37,149 nucleotides of DNA from Actinomycetes bacterium (GTDB taxonomy: Bacteria > Actinomycetota > Acidimicrobiia > Acidimicrobiales > RAAP-2): the NCBI GenBank assembly GCA_021826255.1, contig JAKBAZ010000002.1, positions 1 through 37,149 on the forward strand, given 5' to 3'. Shown one piece after another: positions 7,726-16,302 of this stretch. How positions within the stretch are numbered: position 1 is the stretch's first letter; every line of letters starts with the position of its first letter. The position numbers and the translations under genes are program-made. Below the pieces are notes generated by a model that ran no database searches, was not told the DNA's origin, and saw only the letters and a list, made by a program, of their open reading frames with translations.

Positions 7726-8856
7726 CTACGCCAGAGGCGAGGTGGAGACTCGCTGCCACCACCCGTCGGGGTCACTCAGTTCGTCGTCGCTCGGTAGGGC
7801 GTCGGCTCGGAGGAGGGCCCCGAGGGCGCCGTCGCCGTACGAGTCGATGACGTGGCGAGCCCAGTGAGCGGCACGTTCGTGGTGCTCGCCTTGAAGACTG
7901 GCCCCGAAGAGCGCGGCGGCCGCGTCTTCGCCCCGCGCGTCGCTCAAGCGTCGTCGGCGCCACGCTTCGACAATCGCGTCGTGGGGACCCGTGAGCGCTC
8001 CCGTCACGTCGGCCGCTACGGAGTCGCCCACCGCGAGTAGGGCGGCGACCGCCGCGTTGAGGGAACGCGTGGCGGTCGAATCCTCCGGTGTCGTCAGCCC
8101 CTCGAGGAGTCGTTCGGGGTGAGCCAGAATCTCACTGGCGTCGGCCGACCCCGAGAGTTCTTGGAGCCGAGAGACGATGTCGCCCTGAGTGCGAGCCGCT
8201 TCGCGAACGGTGTCGGCGAGGATAAAACGCAGAGCGTCACCGACTCCGGCCTGGGAGAGGATGAGCGCACTGAGCATCTCGTGGGCGAGGGCGAAGACCA
8301 TGACCTGATCGAGGTCGAGGGACCACTCCTCGCTGAAGCGCGCGACGTTATTCACGACGAGCCCCGGGGCGTAGGGGCGAGGGAGGGGCAGAGCGGCCAG
8401 CGAGAACGCCCGCTCGGAGTAGTGCCCGGCGACCGAACCGAGTTGAAAACCGACGAAGAGGGGCCCGAGCGTCTGGGCGAACTGAGCCATCATCGCCGAG
8501 GGGTCGTCGACTCCCGCGTTCTGGCCGAGTGGGGGAATCTCTTGAGTGAGGGCCACCATGGGTTGGAGCAGGGGGCGCCACTGGGTGAGGGCGCGCTCGG
8601 TGAGCTGGGAACGAGTGAGAGCGTCGACGGATTCGTCGAGGGGCTGGGCGACCCGCTGGGCCAGGTGACGCGCGACGAGGGGGGCGAGTTGCTCGAGACG
8701 TTGGCGTAGTGGAGGTTGGGCGTTCGGATCACCATCGTCCCCTCGGGCGATGGACATGGCCATCTGGGTGGCGTTGGTGAACCAGGCGTCGGGGCCCTGC
8801 TGGGACAGCATGCGCATGACGTCGTCGAACATGGGACCAAAGGGCATCTCGCTCAC
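7726..8856 (-). CDS. DUF2342 / Zincin_2-type putative zinc-dependent metalloprotease
   Basis: N-terminus PFGPMFDDVMRMLSQQGPDAWFTNATQMAMSIA and overall architecture match the actinobacterial family; expected HExxH site reads HEMLS. Confidence 0.7.
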   Translation of the reverse strand: MSEMPFGPMFDDVMRMLSQQGPDAWFTNATQMAMSIARGDDGDPNAQPPLRQRLEQLAPLVARHLAQRVAQPLDESVDALTRSQLTERALTQWRPLLQPMVALTQEIPPLGQNAGVDDPSAMMAQFAQTLGPLFVGFQLGSVAGHYSERAFSLAALPLPRPYAPGLVVNNVARFSEEWSLDLDQVMVFALAHEMLSALILSQAGVGDALRFILADTVREAARTQGDIVSRLQELSGSADASEILAHPERLLEGLTTPEDSTATRSLNAAVAALLAVGDSVAADVTGALTGPHDAIVEAWRRRRLSDARGEDAAAALFGASLQGEHHERAAHWARHVIDSYGDGALGALLRADALPSDDELSDPDGWWQRVSTSPLA

Positions 8857-8913
8857 CCCTCCAACCTAGGCCCCTCCGACTCGCCCCGGGTCCGGGCCCT
8901 AGCATGGGCACTC

Positions 8914-9918
8914 GTGGCCACGGACGTAGCACTCGATCTCGGTACGGCTCGCACCCGACTCGCCACCGATCAGCGGGGCGTCCTCATTGACGAACCGACG
9001 CTGGTGGCTCTTGACACGTCGAGCGGTGACGTTGTCGATATCGGAGACCAGGCCCTCGACCTCGTGGGCCGACTGCCTCGTCACGTGGTGGTCTTTCGCC
9101 CCCTCGCCCAGGGTACGACGGTCGACTTTGACGTCACCGCCCGCCTGATTTCGGGACTCTTTGACCGGGCCGGCATTTCGAAGCTCTCCCGCGCCCGGGT
9201 GATCATGAGCGTTCCGACGGTCGCGACCTCGATTGAGCGCCGGGCCCTGCGCCAAGCGGCCATTCGAGCGGGCGCGAAGGAGGTCACACTCATGGAGGCC
9301 CCCGTGGCGGCGGCGATTGGGCTCGGGATGCCGGTGCAGGAACCGGTGGGATCGGCCGTCGCCGTCTTGGGAGCCGGGGTGACCGAGGCCGCTCTGATCT
9401 CGCTCGGGGGTGTCGTCACCTCCGCCGCGCGCCGAATCGGCGGTGGGGACATCGAGCAGAACCTGGCCACCCTTCTTCGAGTTCGTCACAACGTGGTCGT
9501 CTCCCCGGCGGTGCTCGAGGAGATCAAGATCCACCTCGGATCGGCCAAGGGGCGGGTCCGGGGCCATCCGGTGGTCGTTCGAGCCCGACGGATCTCCGAC
9601 GGGCACCCCGTCGACTTCGAGATCGCCCCGGAGTTGGTGAACGCCGCCGTGACGGAAGTGGTCTCGGCGGCCGAGCGTCTCGTCCAGGAGTGTCTCGGTG
9701 ACGCCCCGCCCGACCTTTCCCAGGACGTGTCCACTCAAGGGGTATCGCTCGTGGGTGGGCACGCCCTGCTCGCCGACGTCGCCGAGTTAATCGAAACGGC
9801 GACCGGGGTCACGGTGCGTGTCGCCGAGGACCCCGGATTGGTGGTCGTTCGTGGACTCGCCATGTGCTTGGAGCAGATGTCGAACCTCCACGCACTCTTT
9901 CGCGAGATCGATCGCTAG
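8914..9918 (+). CDS. MreB-like actin-family protein with diverged nucleotide-binding motifs
   Basis: VALDLGTARTRLATDQRGVLIDEPTLVAL, VVVFRPLAQGTTVDFDVTARLI, RVIMSVPTVATSIERRALRQAAIRAGAKEVTLMEAPVAAAIGLGMPVQEPVGS, ISLGGVVTSAARRIGGGDIE. GTG 8914 is in frame. Confidence 0.82.
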   Translation: MATDVALDLGTARTRLATDQRGVLIDEPTLVALDTSSGDVVDIGDQALDLVGRLPRHVVVFRPLAQGTTVDFDVTARLISGLFDRAGISKLSRARVIMSVPTVATSIERRALRQAAIRAGAKEVTLMEAPVAAAIGLGMPVQEPVGSAVAVLGAGVTEAALISLGGVVTSAARRIGGGDIEQNLATLLRVRHNVVVSPAVLEEIKIHLGSAKGRVRGHPVVVRARRISDGHPVDFEIAPELVNAAVTEVVSAAERLVQECLGDAPPDLSQDVSTQGVSLVGGHALLADVAELIETATGVTVRVAEDPGLVVVRGLAMCLEQMSNLHALFREIDR

Positions 9919-10550
9919 TCGCTCTCCTCGACCCCGTGGGGGTTGAGTTGGTCGATGGCGGTGCGCACTTGCCAGTCGCGGTCGTCGCGGGATCGCTCGA
10001 GCGCCGCGTCGACCTCGGGTCCCTCGAAGGCGGCGAGGGCCACGACTGCCCGACGACGCACCGGGGCCTTGTCGTTGAGGGCCTCGATGATGGCGGGGAC
10101 AGCCCGCTCGTCTCCGAGTGCGCCGAGAGCGCCGAGGGCCGCTTCACGACACCGGGGATCGTCGTGGTCGCGCACGACTCGACAGAGAGCCTCGACGGAC
10201 TGGAGGTCAGTGAGTTCACCGAGCGCGAAACAGGCCGCTTCGCACACCAGGGGGTCGGCGTCGTCGAGGCTCGCGCGCACCCCATCCAGAACCCGCTCGT
10301 CGCTCGTTCCTCGAGCGATCCACTCGAGAGCGTCGCGGCGGGCCTCGGGCGAGTCATCTCCGAGCGCCTCTAACCACTCGTCACGCTGGAGGAGTTGGTG
10401 GTGGGCGAGAGCTCGTCGGGCCAAGACGCGATCTCGACTCTCCGTCGAGTGGAGAGCGCGCCGGGCTACCTCGAGGTCGACTCCGCCGAGGTGACGGGCC
10501 CGAAGAAGGGTGAGATGGAGAGCGCTCGCTAGCGTGGGGTCATTAGCCAC
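9915..10550 (-). CDS. HEAT-repeat protein
   Basis: Repeated helical units, e.g. DPLVCEAACFALGELTD, DPRCREAALGALGALGDERAVPAIIEALNDKAPVRRRAVVALAAF. Confidence 0.8.
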   Translation of the reverse strand: MANDPTLASALHLTLLRARHLGGVDLEVARRALHSTESRDRVLARRALAHHQLLQRDEWLEALGDDSPEARRDALEWIARGTSDERVLDGVRASLDDADPLVCEAACFALGELTDLQSVEALCRVVRDHDDPRCREAALGALGALGDERAVPAIIEALNDKAPVRRRAVVALAAFEGPEVDAALERSRDDRDWQVRTAIDQLNPHGVEESD

Positions 10551-10598: not shown

Positions 10599-11669
10599 GT
10601 GCTCGTAGCACTCGCGCTGGCCGCACTGGTGGTCATTCTCGGACTCTGGCCCACGTCGCAGTACGCGATCACTCCGGGACAGGCCACTCTCGTGCCGCCC
10701 CTCGTCTCGGTGAGTGGGGCGAGCACGAGCCACCACCACTCGCGCATCTACCTCGTCGACGTCTACCTCGAACGCCTCTCCCTCTTGGCCGACGTCGTTG
10801 ATCACCTTCGCGGAGGAGCCATCCAGTTCGTTCCCGAGAGTGCGCTACTCAGTCCCGGGGTACCCGCGTCCCAGCTCGACGCCCAGGGATTCCTCCAGAT
10901 GTCTGACTCCCAGCAGGCGGCCACGGTCGCGGCCCTTCGCGCGCTCGGGTGGCATCCTGAAGTAAGTCCCGACGGCGCGGTCATCACCGAGGTCGCGAGT
11001 AACTCACCGGCCGCCTCGGCCGGGCTCGCGGTGGGTGATCTCGTGAGCGCGCTCGACGGAACTCACATCACGTCGGGCTGCGACCTGGTGCGCGCCCTCG
11101 CGCGAATTCACCCGGGCTCAGAGATAACGGCCACCGTCGACGCGGCGACGTTCTCGCCCACGGGGGTCTTGACCCGGACGGGAGAACGTCGGGTCACCCT
11201 CCATGCGGTGCGAGCGCCCGCGGGATTGACCTCGCCCTGCCCGGGCGTGAGCTCCCTCTCGGCCTACCTCGGCATCGGTATCGAAGACGGAGTTCGAGTC
11301 ACTAGTCCGGTGCGGGTGTCGGTCGACACCGCCAACATTGGAGGACCCTCGGCGGGCCTCGCCATGACCCTCTCGATCATGGATCGACTGTCGTCGACCC
11401 CCGTCGCGGGGTCCATTCCCATAGCCGCGACCGGGACCATCTCGCTCGACGGCGCGGTGGGAGAGGTGGGGGGCGTCGCCGAAAAGACGGTGGCGGTGGA
11501 ACGCGCCGGGGCGACCGTGTTCTTTGTCCCCACCGCCGAGGTGGCCCAGGCGGACGCGGTCGCCGGGCCCTCCCTACGGGTCGTGGGGGTGAGCAGTCTC
11601 GAGCAGGTACTCACCTATCTGCGTCACCTCGGAGCACCCCACCCGACGTCTGTCGAGACCCCCCGGTGA
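10599..11669 (+). CDS. YlbL-type PDZ-domain Lon-like (S16) serine protease; true start may be slightly upstream
   Basis: N-terminal TM segment, PDZ ITEVASNSPAASAGLAVGDLVSALDGTHI, Lon-type Ser in NIGGPSAGLAMTLSIMD and Lys in GGVAEKTVAVERAGA. Confidence 0.87.
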   Translation: MLVALALAALVVILGLWPTSQYAITPGQATLVPPLVSVSGASTSHHHSRIYLVDVYLERLSLLADVVDHLRGGAIQFVPESALLSPGVPASQLDAQGFLQMSDSQQAATVAALRALGWHPEVSPDGAVITEVASNSPAASAGLAVGDLVSALDGTHITSGCDLVRALARIHPGSEITATVDAATFSPTGVLTRTGERRVTLHAVRAPAGLTSPCPGVSSLSAYLGIGIEDGVRVTSPVRVSVDTANIGGPSAGLAMTLSIMDRLSSTPVAGSIPIAATGTISLDGAVGEVGGVAEKTVAVERAGATVFFVPTAEVAQADAVAGPSLRVVGVSSLEQVLTYLRHLGAPHPTSVETPR

Positions 11670-11709: not shown

Positions 11710-13404
11710 ATGGACGACCGCCGGATTCTCACCACCCGTAGTACTCCCCACGACGTGGTGCGCACGACGTTTTCCACTGTTCGTAAGGGATTTGACCCCC
11801 AGGAGGTCCGCGCCCACCTCGAGATGGTGGCTCGAGAGATCACCCAACTCGAAGCCCGACTGCGAGACACCCAGGAGCAGTTGAGTGACGCTCTTCACCG
11901 ACTGGCCAATCCGGTCATCGACGAGTCGACTCTCGTGGGCGCACTCGGCGCCCAGAGTGCGGCGATTCTGCGGTCGGCTCACGACGAGGCCGGACGCGTG
12001 ACCGCCGAGGCCCAAGAGCGCGTCGCCCAGATGTTCTCCGAGACTCAGCAACGGGCCGCCGCTCACCTGATGGAGGCCCAGGAACGAGCCAATCGCACCC
12101 TCAGTGAAGCCGAACGGGCCGCCGAAGTGACCGATATGGAGGCGCGTCAGGCCGCCGATCGGCTCATCGAAACGGCCAAGGTGAACGGCCAGACCCTCGT
12201 CGAACGGGGGCGCGAACAGGGGCGGGCCATCGTGGATCAGGCCAACGACGCTCGCCGCACCATCCTCTCCGACCTCGCGGTGAAGCGAAAGGCCCTTCAC
12301 CTCCAGATCGATCAGCTTCGGGCGGCCCGCGACTCCTTGGTGGAGTCGATGAACGGTCTTCGCGACAACGTCGAGCGCACGCTCGACACGCTGGTGTCCT
12401 CGGACGATCAGGCGCGCCAGGCCGCTATCGAAGTCTTACGGCTTCGCCCTCCGACGAAGGAGCCGACCGAAGAAGAGTTGCTGGCGGGCACCCCGCTTCG
12501 AAAAGTCGAGGAGCCCGAACTGGTGGCCGTCGAGGACCCGAGGACGTCGTCGGCGGTCCCCAGCGCGCCCGCCAGTCCCGCACCGGCGCCGGCGAGCCCC
12601 GCGAATGAGGACACCGAGTCGTTCGTCGAGGAGGACCCCTCGGGCACGGACGTGGTGAACGAGATCTTCGCTCGGCTTCGTAAAGCCACTCTCGAAGAAC
12701 GCGGGGCGAGCGAGACACCGCCCAAGCGACCGGCTGCGCCAGCCCGTCTCGAGACCCCGGTGGACGAACTCTTCGCTCGCCGGGATCGAGCGCTGAACGA
12801 GTCTCTGGCCGTTCTCGTGCGTAAGGTTAAGCGAGCCCTCCAGGACGACCAGAATGTGACCCTTGATCTCGTGCGCGATCTCTCGGGGGATCCGACGGCT
12901 CACCTCGAAGACGAGATGAGCCAGCGAGCGCGCTACTCCTCGGCGGCCCTCGACGCTCTGGTCGACGCGGCGGCGGCGGGGGTCCAGTTCGCTGTCGACG
13001 AGGGCGGCGTGGCGCCTCGCGAGATAACGAGCGCCGATCTCGACGAGTGCGTGCGCGACCTCGCCGTGACTGTCGTGGTCGCGTTGCGTAAGCGAATGGC
13101 GGCCGACGGCAACGAGCAGGCCAGCGAGCGGGTGAACGCGGCTTACCGGGAGTGGCGCGGCGCACGAATCGAGCGCCTCGCCACCGACGCTGGACGGCGG
13201 GCGTTCCACCTCGGGGTCATTCTCGCCTCGCGGGGTCACTCGGTGAGATTCCTCAACGCCCCTCACGACCCGCCCTGTGACGCGTGCGCCCTCGACGCCG
13301 CGACCCACCGCGAGGCGGGACAGAGCTTCCCGAGTGGGTCACTCCATCCTCCCGTTCACGCCGGATGCGCCTGCACGGTGATTCCGCTCGTCGAAAGGTC
13401 CTAG
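11710..13404 (+). CDS. DivIVA-domain coiled-coil protein with C-terminal MuF/SPP1-gp7-like Cys cluster
   Basis: N-term TPHDVVRTTFSTVRKGFDPQEVRAHLEMVAREI (DivIVA), long coiled coil, Ala/Pro linker, C-term PPCDACALDAATHREAGQSFPSGSLHPPVHAGCACTVIP. Confidence 0.8.
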   Translation: MDDRRILTTRSTPHDVVRTTFSTVRKGFDPQEVRAHLEMVAREITQLEARLRDTQEQLSDALHRLANPVIDESTLVGALGAQSAAILRSAHDEAGRVTAEAQERVAQMFSETQQRAAAHLMEAQERANRTLSEAERAAEVTDMEARQAADRLIETAKVNGQTLVERGREQGRAIVDQANDARRTILSDLAVKRKALHLQIDQLRAARDSLVESMNGLRDNVERTLDTLVSSDDQARQAAIEVLRLRPPTKEPTEEELLAGTPLRKVEEPELVAVEDPRTSSAVPSAPASPAPAPASPANEDTESFVEEDPSGTDVVNEIFARLRKATLEERGASETPPKRPAAPARLETPVDELFARRDRALNESLAVLVRKVKRALQDDQNVTLDLVRDLSGDPTAHLEDEMSQRARYSSAALDALVDAAAAGVQFAVDEGGVAPREITSADLDECVRDLAVTVVVALRKRMAADGNEQASERVNAAYREWRGARIERLATDAGRRAFHLGVILASRGHSVRFLNAPHDPPCDACALDAATHREAGQSFPSGSLHPPVHAGCACTVIPLVERS

Positions 13405-13413
13405 GCTGAGGGC

Positions 13414-16302
13414 GTGCGATCGCCCTCCGACGTCCCGTCCGCGCGCCGACTGAGTCGACCTTCGCGACGATTCTGGATCGGCCTCGTGGCCGTCGTTGTC
13501 GTCGTGTTTCTGTTCTCGCTGCGCAGTCTGGCGGTGCTCTGGACGGATCAGATGTGGTTCTCCCAGTCGGGCTTCGGCTCGGTCTTCACGGGCATTTTGT
13601 GGACCAAGGTGGGCCTCGCCCTCGTGTTCGGCGCCATCTTCGCCGTCATCATGTGGGTGAACCTCATTTTGGCCGACCGATTTGGAGCCCGGGACCTGAG
13701 TTTTGAACCCGACGACGAGTTGGTTCGTCGCTTCCAGAACTCGGTGCGGCCCCGCGCGGTGCTGGTCTACGGCGGGGTGTCCGTTCTTACGGGAGCGGTG
13801 GCCGGACTGAACGCCTCGGGTCAGTGGAACGTGTGGCTGCTCTATCGACACTCGCAGTCCTTTGGCGTCGTCGACCCGGTCTTTCACAAGGACGTGGGTT
13901 TCTACGTCTTTACCCTGCCGTTCTACTCCTTCGTGGTTACCTGGGGTCTCGTCGCGCTCTTTGTGACGTTGATCCTCACCACCCTCGCCCACTTTTTGAA
14001 TGGAGGAATTCGGGCCCGCTCGAGAGGCGTGTCGGTCGCCCCGCGGGTGAAGGCCCACTTGAGTGTGCTCGGGGCGTTCATCGCGCTCTTTAAGGCCGCG
14101 GGCTACGTCATCGCTCGTTGGCACCTCGTCACCTCTACTAACGGTTACGTCGAGGGGGCGGGCTACACCGACGTCCACGCTCGGATGCCCGCTCTCACGA
14201 TTCTCGTCGTCCTCTCGCTCACGTCGGCTGTCATCTTGCTCGCCAACGTGCGGATGCGTGGCTGGTCGCTGCCCGCGGTGGCCGTGGGTCTCTGGGCCTT
14301 TGTCGCCCTCGTGATCGGCGTGCTCTACCCGACGTTCCTCCAGACCCTGAAGGTTTCGCCGGCCCAGAGTTCCCTCGAGTCGCCCTACATTGCCCGTAAC
14401 ATCGCCGCGACGCGGCAGGCCTGGGGCCTCGACAATGTCGCGTACCACAGTTTCGCCGGATCCTCGAGTGTTCCGAACTCGGTCCTGAAGGCCGACGCGG
14501 CGACGCTCACGAACATTCGCCTCTGGGACCCCGATCCCCAAATCGCCCTCGCGACGACCATTCGGCGTCAATCCATTAGGTCGTACTACACCTTCTCGAC
14601 GCTCGGAGTCGATCGCTACCAAGTCAACGGGAAGTTGACCCCCGTGCTCATCGGAGCGCGAGAGATTTCGTCCTCCTCGCTACCCTCCGCGGGCTGGGTC
14701 AACACGCACCTGCAGTACACCCACGGGTACGGGGTGGCTCTCCTCGCCGCCAACCAGGTGGACTCCACCACGGGAAACCCGATCTACGACGTGGCTAACC
14801 TGCCCCCAGTCTCGAGCGCGGGACTACCCACGTTGACTCAACCGGGTATCTACTTCGGGGTCGGAGACTCGGGCTGGGTGGTCGCCAATACGAAGCAACC
14901 CGAGATTGACTACCAGTTGCCCGGGGGACAGAACGTCGAGACCCACTACGCCGGTTCTGGTGGCGTGAAGGTCGGGGGCTTCCTTAGCCGCCTGGCCCTC
15001 GCTCTTCGCCTCAGCGACTTCAACTTCCTTATTTCGAATCAGATCACTCCGTCATCGAGAGTGCTCTTCGTGCGCGACGTGACCGCGATGGCCGAAAAGG
15101 CCGCGCCGTTCCTGGCCTTTGACTCTCAGCCCTACGCCGTCATTGCTAACGGGCACGTGGACTTCGTGCTCGACGGCTACACCACTTCCTCGCAGTACCC
15201 CTACTCCCAGAACGCCAACTCCCTGGGGTTGAGTGCATCGGGTTTGCCCTACTCGTTTAACTACGTACGTAACTCGGTGAAGGTGGTGATCGACGCCTAC
15301 ACCGGCCAGATGACGTTCTACGTGATGGACCCGACCGATCCGATTATCCGGGCCTACGAGGTGGCGTTCCCGGGGATGTTCCATCCGCTCTCGGCGATGC
15401 CCGCGACGGTTCTCCAACACTTGCGCTACCCCCAGGACATCTTCTCGGCCCAGGCCACCGTGCTCGGGCGTTACCACATCACCGTCCCGACGGCCTTCTA
15501 CAACGCGTCGGACCAGTGGCAGATCTCGCCGACGACCGGGGCCGGCCCACCCAGTTCGACGCTCGCCCAAACGGCCGTCACGAACGCCAACAACATCGTG
15601 GTGGCGACCCAGAACGCCCCGATGTCACCGCTCTATCAGGTGGGGGCTCTGCCGGGAGTGAATCGCCAACAACTCCTCGAGTCCCTGGCCTTCGTTCCCG
15701 CGGGTAACTCCTCGACGGTGCAGCCCCTCTCGGCGTTCATCGAAGCGACCTCCGATCCCACCGACTACGGGAAGTTGAACGTGTACGTCACGCCGCGGGG
15801 CCAGCAGGTGACCGGCCCGGCGCAGGCCGATTCGGAGATCCAGCAGAACGCCTCGGTGAGCGCCAACATCACTCTGCTGGACCAGCACGGAAGCCAGGTG
15901 CTGTTGGGTAACGACGTCATGGTTCCCCTCGACCAGAGCATCCTCTACGTTCGGCCGCTCTACGTCACGTCGACCTCCAACCCCATGCCCCAGCTGCGCT
16001 TCGTCATCGCCGTCTTTAACCAGGACGTCGCTATCGAGCCAACTCTCTCTCAGGCCCTCGCGAAGGTCCTCGGACCGGCCGCCACCTCGGGGGGCTCGGG
16101 CTCGTCGGGGGGAACGACACCCCCTTCCGGTGGTTCGAAGGGGTCGGGATCGGCCGCCGCGACCAGCTACCTGGCGCAGGCCCAGAGTGACTACGCCGCG
16201 GCCCAGGCCGCGCTCGCGGCCGGGAACCTCGGGCTCTACCAGAGCGACGTGAACGCGATGAAGGCCGCTATCGCGAAGGCCCAAGCAGCCCTCGCGGGCT
16301 AA
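13414..16302 (+). CDS. UPF0182 family membrane protein
   Basis: 962 aa; N-terminal multi-TM region, LWTDQMWFSQSGFGSVFTGILWTK, QAWGLDNVAYHSF, low-complexity GSGSSGGTTPPSGG linker and Ala-rich tail characteristic of UPF0182. Confidence 0.93.
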   Translation: MRSPSDVPSARRLSRPSRRFWIGLVAVVVVVFLFSLRSLAVLWTDQMWFSQSGFGSVFTGILWTKVGLALVFGAIFAVIMWVNLILADRFGARDLSFEPDDELVRRFQNSVRPRAVLVYGGVSVLTGAVAGLNASGQWNVWLLYRHSQSFGVVDPVFHKDVGFYVFTLPFYSFVVTWGLVALFVTLILTTLAHFLNGGIRARSRGVSVAPRVKAHLSVLGAFIALFKAAGYVIARWHLVTSTNGYVEGAGYTDVHARMPALTILVVLSLTSAVILLANVRMRGWSLPAVAVGLWAFVALVIGVLYPTFLQTLKVSPAQSSLESPYIARNIAATRQAWGLDNVAYHSFAGSSSVPNSVLKADAATLTNIRLWDPDPQIALATTIRRQSIRSYYTFSTLGVDRYQVNGKLTPVLIGAREISSSSLPSAGWVNTHLQYTHGYGVALLAANQVDSTTGNPIYDVANLPPVSSAGLPTLTQPGIYFGVGDSGWVVANTKQPEIDYQLPGGQNVETHYAGSGGVKVGGFLSRLALALRLSDFNFLISNQITPSSRVLFVRDVTAMAEKAAPFLAFDSQPYAVIANGHVDFVLDGYTTSSQYPYSQNANSLGLSASGLPYSFNYVRNSVKVVIDAYTGQMTFYVMDPTDPIIRAYEVAFPGMFHPLSAMPATVLQHLRYPQDIFSAQATVLGRYHITVPTAFYNASDQWQISPTTGAGPPSSTLAQTAVTNANNIVVATQNAPMSPLYQVGALPGVNRQQLLESLAFVPAGNSSTVQPLSAFIEATSDPTDYGKLNVYVTPRGQQVTGPAQADSEIQQNASVSANITLLDQHGSQVLLGNDVMVPLDQSILYVRPLYVTSTSNPMPQLRFVIAVFNQDVAIEPTLSQALAKVLGPAATSGGSGSSGGTTPPSGGSKGSGSAAATSYLAQAQSDYAAAQAALAAGNLGLYQSDVNAMKAAIAKAQAALAG

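Follow-up and report, generated by a model that had tools for sequence, protein, structure and literature searches.

A resident actinobacterial gene joining a DivIVA-type scaffold to a phage MuF-like domain

DivIVA proteins are self-assembling scaffolds on curved membranes. In Mycobacterium the gene pair Rv3194c-Rv3193c encodes a PDZ-LonC protease and a UPF0182 protein. A Tn-seq screen in M. tuberculosis for genes that interact genetically with rv0954, a divisome gene, has the UPF0182 protein (Rv3193c) among its membrane-protein hits (PMC8093794), and in B. subtilis YlbL, a protease of the PDZ-LonC type, helps to remove the division inhibitor YneA (PMC6051672). MuF domains are found in phage minor head proteins such as SPP1 gp7 and in portal-MuF fusions, and their function is unknown even in phages (PMC5576092). 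SPP1 gp7 binds strongly to the portal oligomer gp6 and is dispensable, yet only about a quarter of virions lacking it are infectious (PMC6316719). MuF domains also occur in prophage-borne polymorphic toxins, whose toxin domains extend the protein C-terminal of the MuF domain (PMC5576092).

The window analysed here is a stretch of 37,149 nucleotides from an Actinomycetes bacterium of the class Acidimicrobiia (contig JAKBAZ010000002.1). An earlier note, made from the sequence alone, had described in it a gene for a protein that starts as DivIVA, continues through an Ala/Glu coiled coil and an acidic/Pro linker, and ends like a phage MuF/SPP1 gp7 protein. The gene was read as described (Table 1), with no internal stop or frameshift; the residues quoted for the N-terminus and the last ~40 positions agreed exactly, and both coiled coil and linker were borne out, the linker being the least conserved part when two species of the genus were compared. 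Relatives carried the full-length fused frame, one from the same genus at 52% identity over residues 1-557 and one from another genus of the family at 41% over residues 5-558, each in one open frame, and a frameshift joining two genes is thereby excluded. The N-terminus passed the domain cut-offs for DivIVA, scoring 46.6 bits against PF05103 (cut-off 28, E=4.2e-12) and 26.4 against the NCBIfam DivI1A domain (cut-off 22), while its NCBIfam Wag31 score of 33.8 fell far under the cut-off of 260. With DivIVA/Wag31 proteins (PF05103) the product shares the DivIVA domain at its N-terminus and the coiled coil; unlike them it carries an additional MuF domain and is encoded with PDZ-LonC and UPF0182. 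The earlier observation is confirmed, and the gene joins a DivIVA-type scaffold to a domain whose other known carriers are the minor head proteins of phages (MuF/gp7). A second DivIVA-type frame, of 245 codons, lies elsewhere in the same genome.

Table 1. Positions in the window of the fusion gene, its parts and its conserved neighbours
Feature	Coordinates	Strand	Basis
Zincin-like metallopeptidase gene	7726..8856	-	PF10103; 42/80 loci
MreB-like gene	8716..9918	+	PF06723; 55/80 loci
HEAT-repeat protein gene	9915..10550	-	PF13646; 58/80 loci
PDZ-LonC protease gene (YlbL / Rv3194c type)	10599..11669	+	Pfam PDZ_2 + Lon_C; upstream in 71/80 loci
DivIVA-MuF fusion gene	11710..13404	+	564 aa/codons; single open frame; full-length relatives
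DivIVA domain and first coiled coil	11743..12081	+	residues 12-124; PF05103; TIGR03544 at residues 12-44
Conserved Ala/Glu-rich coiled coil	12082..12444	+	residues ~125-245; column conservation, 41 relatives
Variable acidic/Pro-rich linker	12445..12759	+	residues ~246-350; low occupancy and conservation
MuF-like domain	12760..13392	+	residues 351-561; PHROG 2662, hhalign, AlphaFold2, BFVD
Cys/His cluster C523, C526, H550, C553, C555	13276..13374	+	counts over 159 relatives
UPF0182 gene, directly downstream	13414..16302	+	PF03699, 820 bits; 79/80 loci

The C-terminal 207 residues of the window protein alone matched PHROG 2662 ('portal protein', E=7.2e-8), and the match lay at the profile's C-terminal end, which is taken to be where portal-MuF fusions carry MuF. 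This profile was matched by 38 of 40 relatives (best 1.9e-14), with head-morphogenesis and minor-head PHROGs additionally matched by other relatives of the set. Phage_Mu_F (PF04233) was matched at E<=0.1 by 19/40 relatives (best 7.4e-6); the window protein alone had no PF04233 match, and the curated cut-off was passed in 0/21 genomes searched. A scan of IMG/VR found 54 viral loci, the majority with proteins ending in C..C...PPxHPGCRC, and when the cellular and viral alignments were compared by hhalign the result was 99.6% (E=9.5e-25; full reversed control, 1.8%). Single-sequence tblastn against INPHARED phages gave no match, and a PDB search by sequence gave only chance helical and ribosomal matches. 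The likeness to MuF profiles that had been put forward therefore holds for PHROG 2662, for hhalign and for the BFVD fold matches described below, and fails for PF04233 with the window protein.

To this the predicted structure can be added. An AlphaFold2 model of residues 350-564 (pLDDT 93.3, pTM 0.90) consists of four long helices followed by a small beta part bearing the Cys cluster. Foldseek against BFVD returned 97 matches at E<=1e-3 (TM-score <=0.77 by query length); among the best 50 of these, the named matches were head morphogenesis, minor capsid, capsid morphogenesis/maturation and portal proteins, along with a zeta-toxin-domain protein, an ADP-ribosyltransferase and one 'Gp15'. For the MuF domain nothing was returned from the PDB by fold at E<=0.001, and no solved structure of the MuF fold was found in that search. 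On the strength of the model, the fusion C-terminus and phage MuF proteins are predicted to have a common fold. The domain is thus like phage MuF/SPP1 gp7 proteins and portal-MuF fusions (PF04233; PHROG 2662) in profile, in fold and in its CxxC...PPxHPxCxC ending.

Conservation of this ending was assessed over 159 relatives from a family HMM search in which the motif was not required, although that HMM was derived from rows bearing the motif, so that very degenerate relatives may escape. The C-terminal cluster (CxxC...PPxHxxCxC) that had been pointed out has four Cys and the His in the window protein, and all four Cys were present in 138/159 relatives. His550 was found in 151/159, and C553 and C555 in all 154 relatives that reach that far. 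The four-Cys site was reduced or lost in the other 21, with one CxxC cysteine substituted in 16 and the protein ending before the cluster in 5 (G462, G413 and both G274 copies among them). The cluster is therefore not due to chance, and is usual but not essential; its reduction or loss in 21/159 suggests that function does not centre on it and that its role is probably structural. Such a losable element would probably bind metal rather than be catalytic, although metal binding, and zinc in particular, is inferred without metal data. Decaying Cys/His sites were seen in the distant relatives L236, L238, L239 and L242 (PPAEPSCGC, PPANLDCVC, SDETC and PPVRVGCAC).

The distribution of the domain was determined in 398 Actinomycetota genomes, 60 of them from the window's class and 338 from others. 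The domain was matched in 55/60 Acidimicrobiia, the class for which a phyletic profile of the fusion had been proposed, and in 18/338 other genomes of the phylum. These 18 came mainly from two further classes (6/19 and 11/34 genomes), the remaining one being a marginal match (G447). In an unrooted tree with 38 phage domains the cellular MuF domains formed one clan (SH-aLRT 98), and capture from phage to cell is the likely, though unproven, direction. No portal, terminase or capsid genes were seen among the tested neighbours in the window, in agreement with the earlier statement that no phage genes lie nearby; the conserved neighbours are cellular, and gp7-type membership was not met. With the same gene in the same place across three classes, the fusion is resident and vertically kept and is not a prophage remnant, as had been supposed for the chromosomal gene. 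Unlike in phage MuF/gp7 proteins, its MuF sits behind DivIVA and belongs to a separate, vertically kept cellular clan. The idea of a domesticated capsid-type domain on a scaffold protein is supported by the MuF homology, the predicted fold and this conserved residence, with localisation remaining an inference.

The gene neighbourhood was compared over 80 loci, where counts are subject to contig ends (Table 1). UPF0182 lay just downstream of the fusion in 20/20 distant loci read, with a median gap of about 23 nt (9 nt in the window), and was present in 24/24 checked genomes having a domain match. Computationally, these data demonstrate an operon-like order and deep co-inheritance of the fusion with UPF0182. 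Evolutionary distances of the MuF domain and UPF0182 were correlated (r=0.54, 0/2000 permutations as high), which may reflect species descent alone. The locus has both neighbours and their order in common with Rv3194c-Rv3193c, and differs in having an extra gene between them that is absent from most other Actinomycetota sampled. UPF0182 without the fusion is common in many other Actinomycetota, two genomes (G035, G055) have no fusion gene and PDZ-LonC directly beside UPF0182, and in G011 a variant with the DivIVA part only and no MuF domain stands between the two; the MuF domain is therefore not essential for UPF0182. By charge, hydropathy and an AlphaFold2 model (pLDDT 87), UPF0182 is predicted to have seven transmembrane helices, an inner N-terminus, short inner parts at about residues 1-21, 87-117, 192-215 and 277-285, and an outer domain of ~650 residues; by fold, nothing matched it in the PDB at E<=0.001. 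The PDZ-LonC neighbour has an N-terminal transmembrane helix. Genome G274 contains two UPF0182 loci (L240, L241), and a separate fusion gene lies ahead of each. The Pfam match of the MreB-like protein begins only at residue 69, which would mean either an upstream start codon or an N-terminal extension, and its gene overlaps the divergent zincin gene at the latter's start.

That three classes of Actinomycetota have retained this joined gene next to one and the same pair of membrane-protein genes suggests that an old phage part is at work in the cell envelope. We propose that the protein is a DivIVA-type scaffold in the cytoplasm and that its MuF domain, now domesticated, docks the envelope machinery of UPF0182 and PDZ-LonC where the membrane is curved or septal; our confidence in this reading is evenly divided, and the docking, the localisation and any part in division or growth are inferred, as is zinc. 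The DivIVA domain and coiled coil would bind the inner membrane face and self-assemble, an assignment of location that rests on DivIVA itself, and the flexible acidic/Pro linker would hold out the C-terminal MuF domain. A single capture from a phage portal/minor-head module is the most likely origin of this domain, which would then have been retained in Acidimicrobiia and in parts of two other actinobacterial classes. It would most likely serve as a docking module for the adjacently encoded seven-transmembrane UPF0182 protein and the membrane-anchored PDZ-LonC protease, and the scaffold may cluster this machinery at the division site or the poles. The steps from MuF homology to partner docking are inference by analogy. 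The MreB-like gene within the conserved cluster, the Tn-seq hit of Rv3193c with rv0954 and the action of YlbL on YneA count in favour of a link to division; against docking counts the predicted outside position of the large UPF0182 domain, which would leave only short inner loops within reach of the scaffold. A stronger version, in which MuF keeps its phage binding mode and docks a UPF0182 ring or pore as gp7 docks the portal ring, again rests on analogy and must be regarded as a long shot; if true, Acidimicrobiia and their relatives would own a membrane conduit that DivIVA positions and that a one-time phage head protein gates.

Both domains are known, and as far as the literature was searched their combination, its residence and the conserved gene order are new. 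Among open-licence PMC papers none was found containing both 'DivIVA' and 'MuF', or both 'DivIVA' and 'Acidimicrobiia'; the gathering cut-offs of the published MuF survey (PMC5576092) would largely miss the DivIVA-MuF family. The fusion resembles the MuF polymorphic toxins of that survey in that a bacterial chromosome encodes its MuF domain, but its MuF is C-terminal, it is not prophage-borne, and no toxin domain was found in the protein. It would be a further example of domestication, here of an old phage head domain within a scaffold of the cell envelope, and a stable cellular MuF with fixed partners would make a binding role testable outside virions. It also provides a handle on UPF0182, which is widespread, has no known function and is linked genetically to division in mycobacteria.

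Other roles for the domain were weighed against docking. It could act as a chromosome tether, the MuF domain binding DNA and DivIVA anchoring it at the pole or septum; this is possible but unlikely. Three basic residues, K374 (157/159), R375 (154/159) and R480 (151/159), belong to the best-conserved positions, and the portal-targeted protein, SPP1 gp7, is called DNA-binding in the title of reference 84 of PMC6316719, the title being all that supports this point. Set against these, the domain is acidic, with a median net charge of -11 (-7 for the helical part), and its closest conserved neighbours encode membrane proteins rather than segregation proteins.

We also think it improbable that the DivIVA coiled coil does the work and merely carries along a MuF domain in decay, with the C-terminus adding only bulk or stability. 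The five relatives that stop before the Cys cluster, the variant in G011 without the domain and the broken Cys sites of some distant relatives would fit such decay. Retention of the domain in 159 relatives of three classes, with K374, R375 and R480 nearly invariant, argues against it, as does a dN well below dS for the fusion gene in the window's genus, where dS is near saturation.

Genes for phage defence are usually subject to turnover and found within islands. A membrane-tethered decoy, in which MuF would compete with or jam the MuF or portal proteins of entering phages, could draw on the support that the homologous phage protein gives to the start of infection; a single copy in a fixed housekeeping position across classes is not the usual pattern of defence genes, the fusion protein had no PADLOC match, and we give this role very little credence.

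Disfavoured still more, and hardly credible, is convergence, by which only the CxxC...HxxCxC motif would be MuF-like and the rest an unrelated helical domain. The viral alignment set was chosen in part by the Cys motif, and hhalign was therefore repeated with the Cys part cut from both alignments. The result was still 90.7% (E=1.3e-6) over 152 collinear columns, against 0-1% for Cys-less reversed, eight column-permuted and DivIVA-coil controls. In favour of convergence, Cys-less single sequences mostly lost their PHROG match, only 2/10 retaining a weak one to phrog_2662, so that the case for remote homology in the helical part is made by profiles and fold. Matches of the family HMM on phage ORFs, however, cover model positions 22-232, and the fold matches span the whole domain. 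Taken together, the relatives, PHROGs, profile-profile alignment and predicted fold support the C-terminal ~210 residues as MuF-like as a whole domain; the similarity that had been claimed to phage MuF/SPP1 gp7 reaches past the Cys cluster.

A prophage remnant or recent insertion, which the location of 96% of MuF genes of bacterial genomes in prophages or remnants (PMC5576092) might bring to mind, is ruled out by the same gene in the same place across three classes. One PF04233 match, on contig 209 of genome G008 (L054, of the same order), was rejected as a family member, being a separate portal-like ORF; it has a degenerate MuF-like end and is probably prophage.
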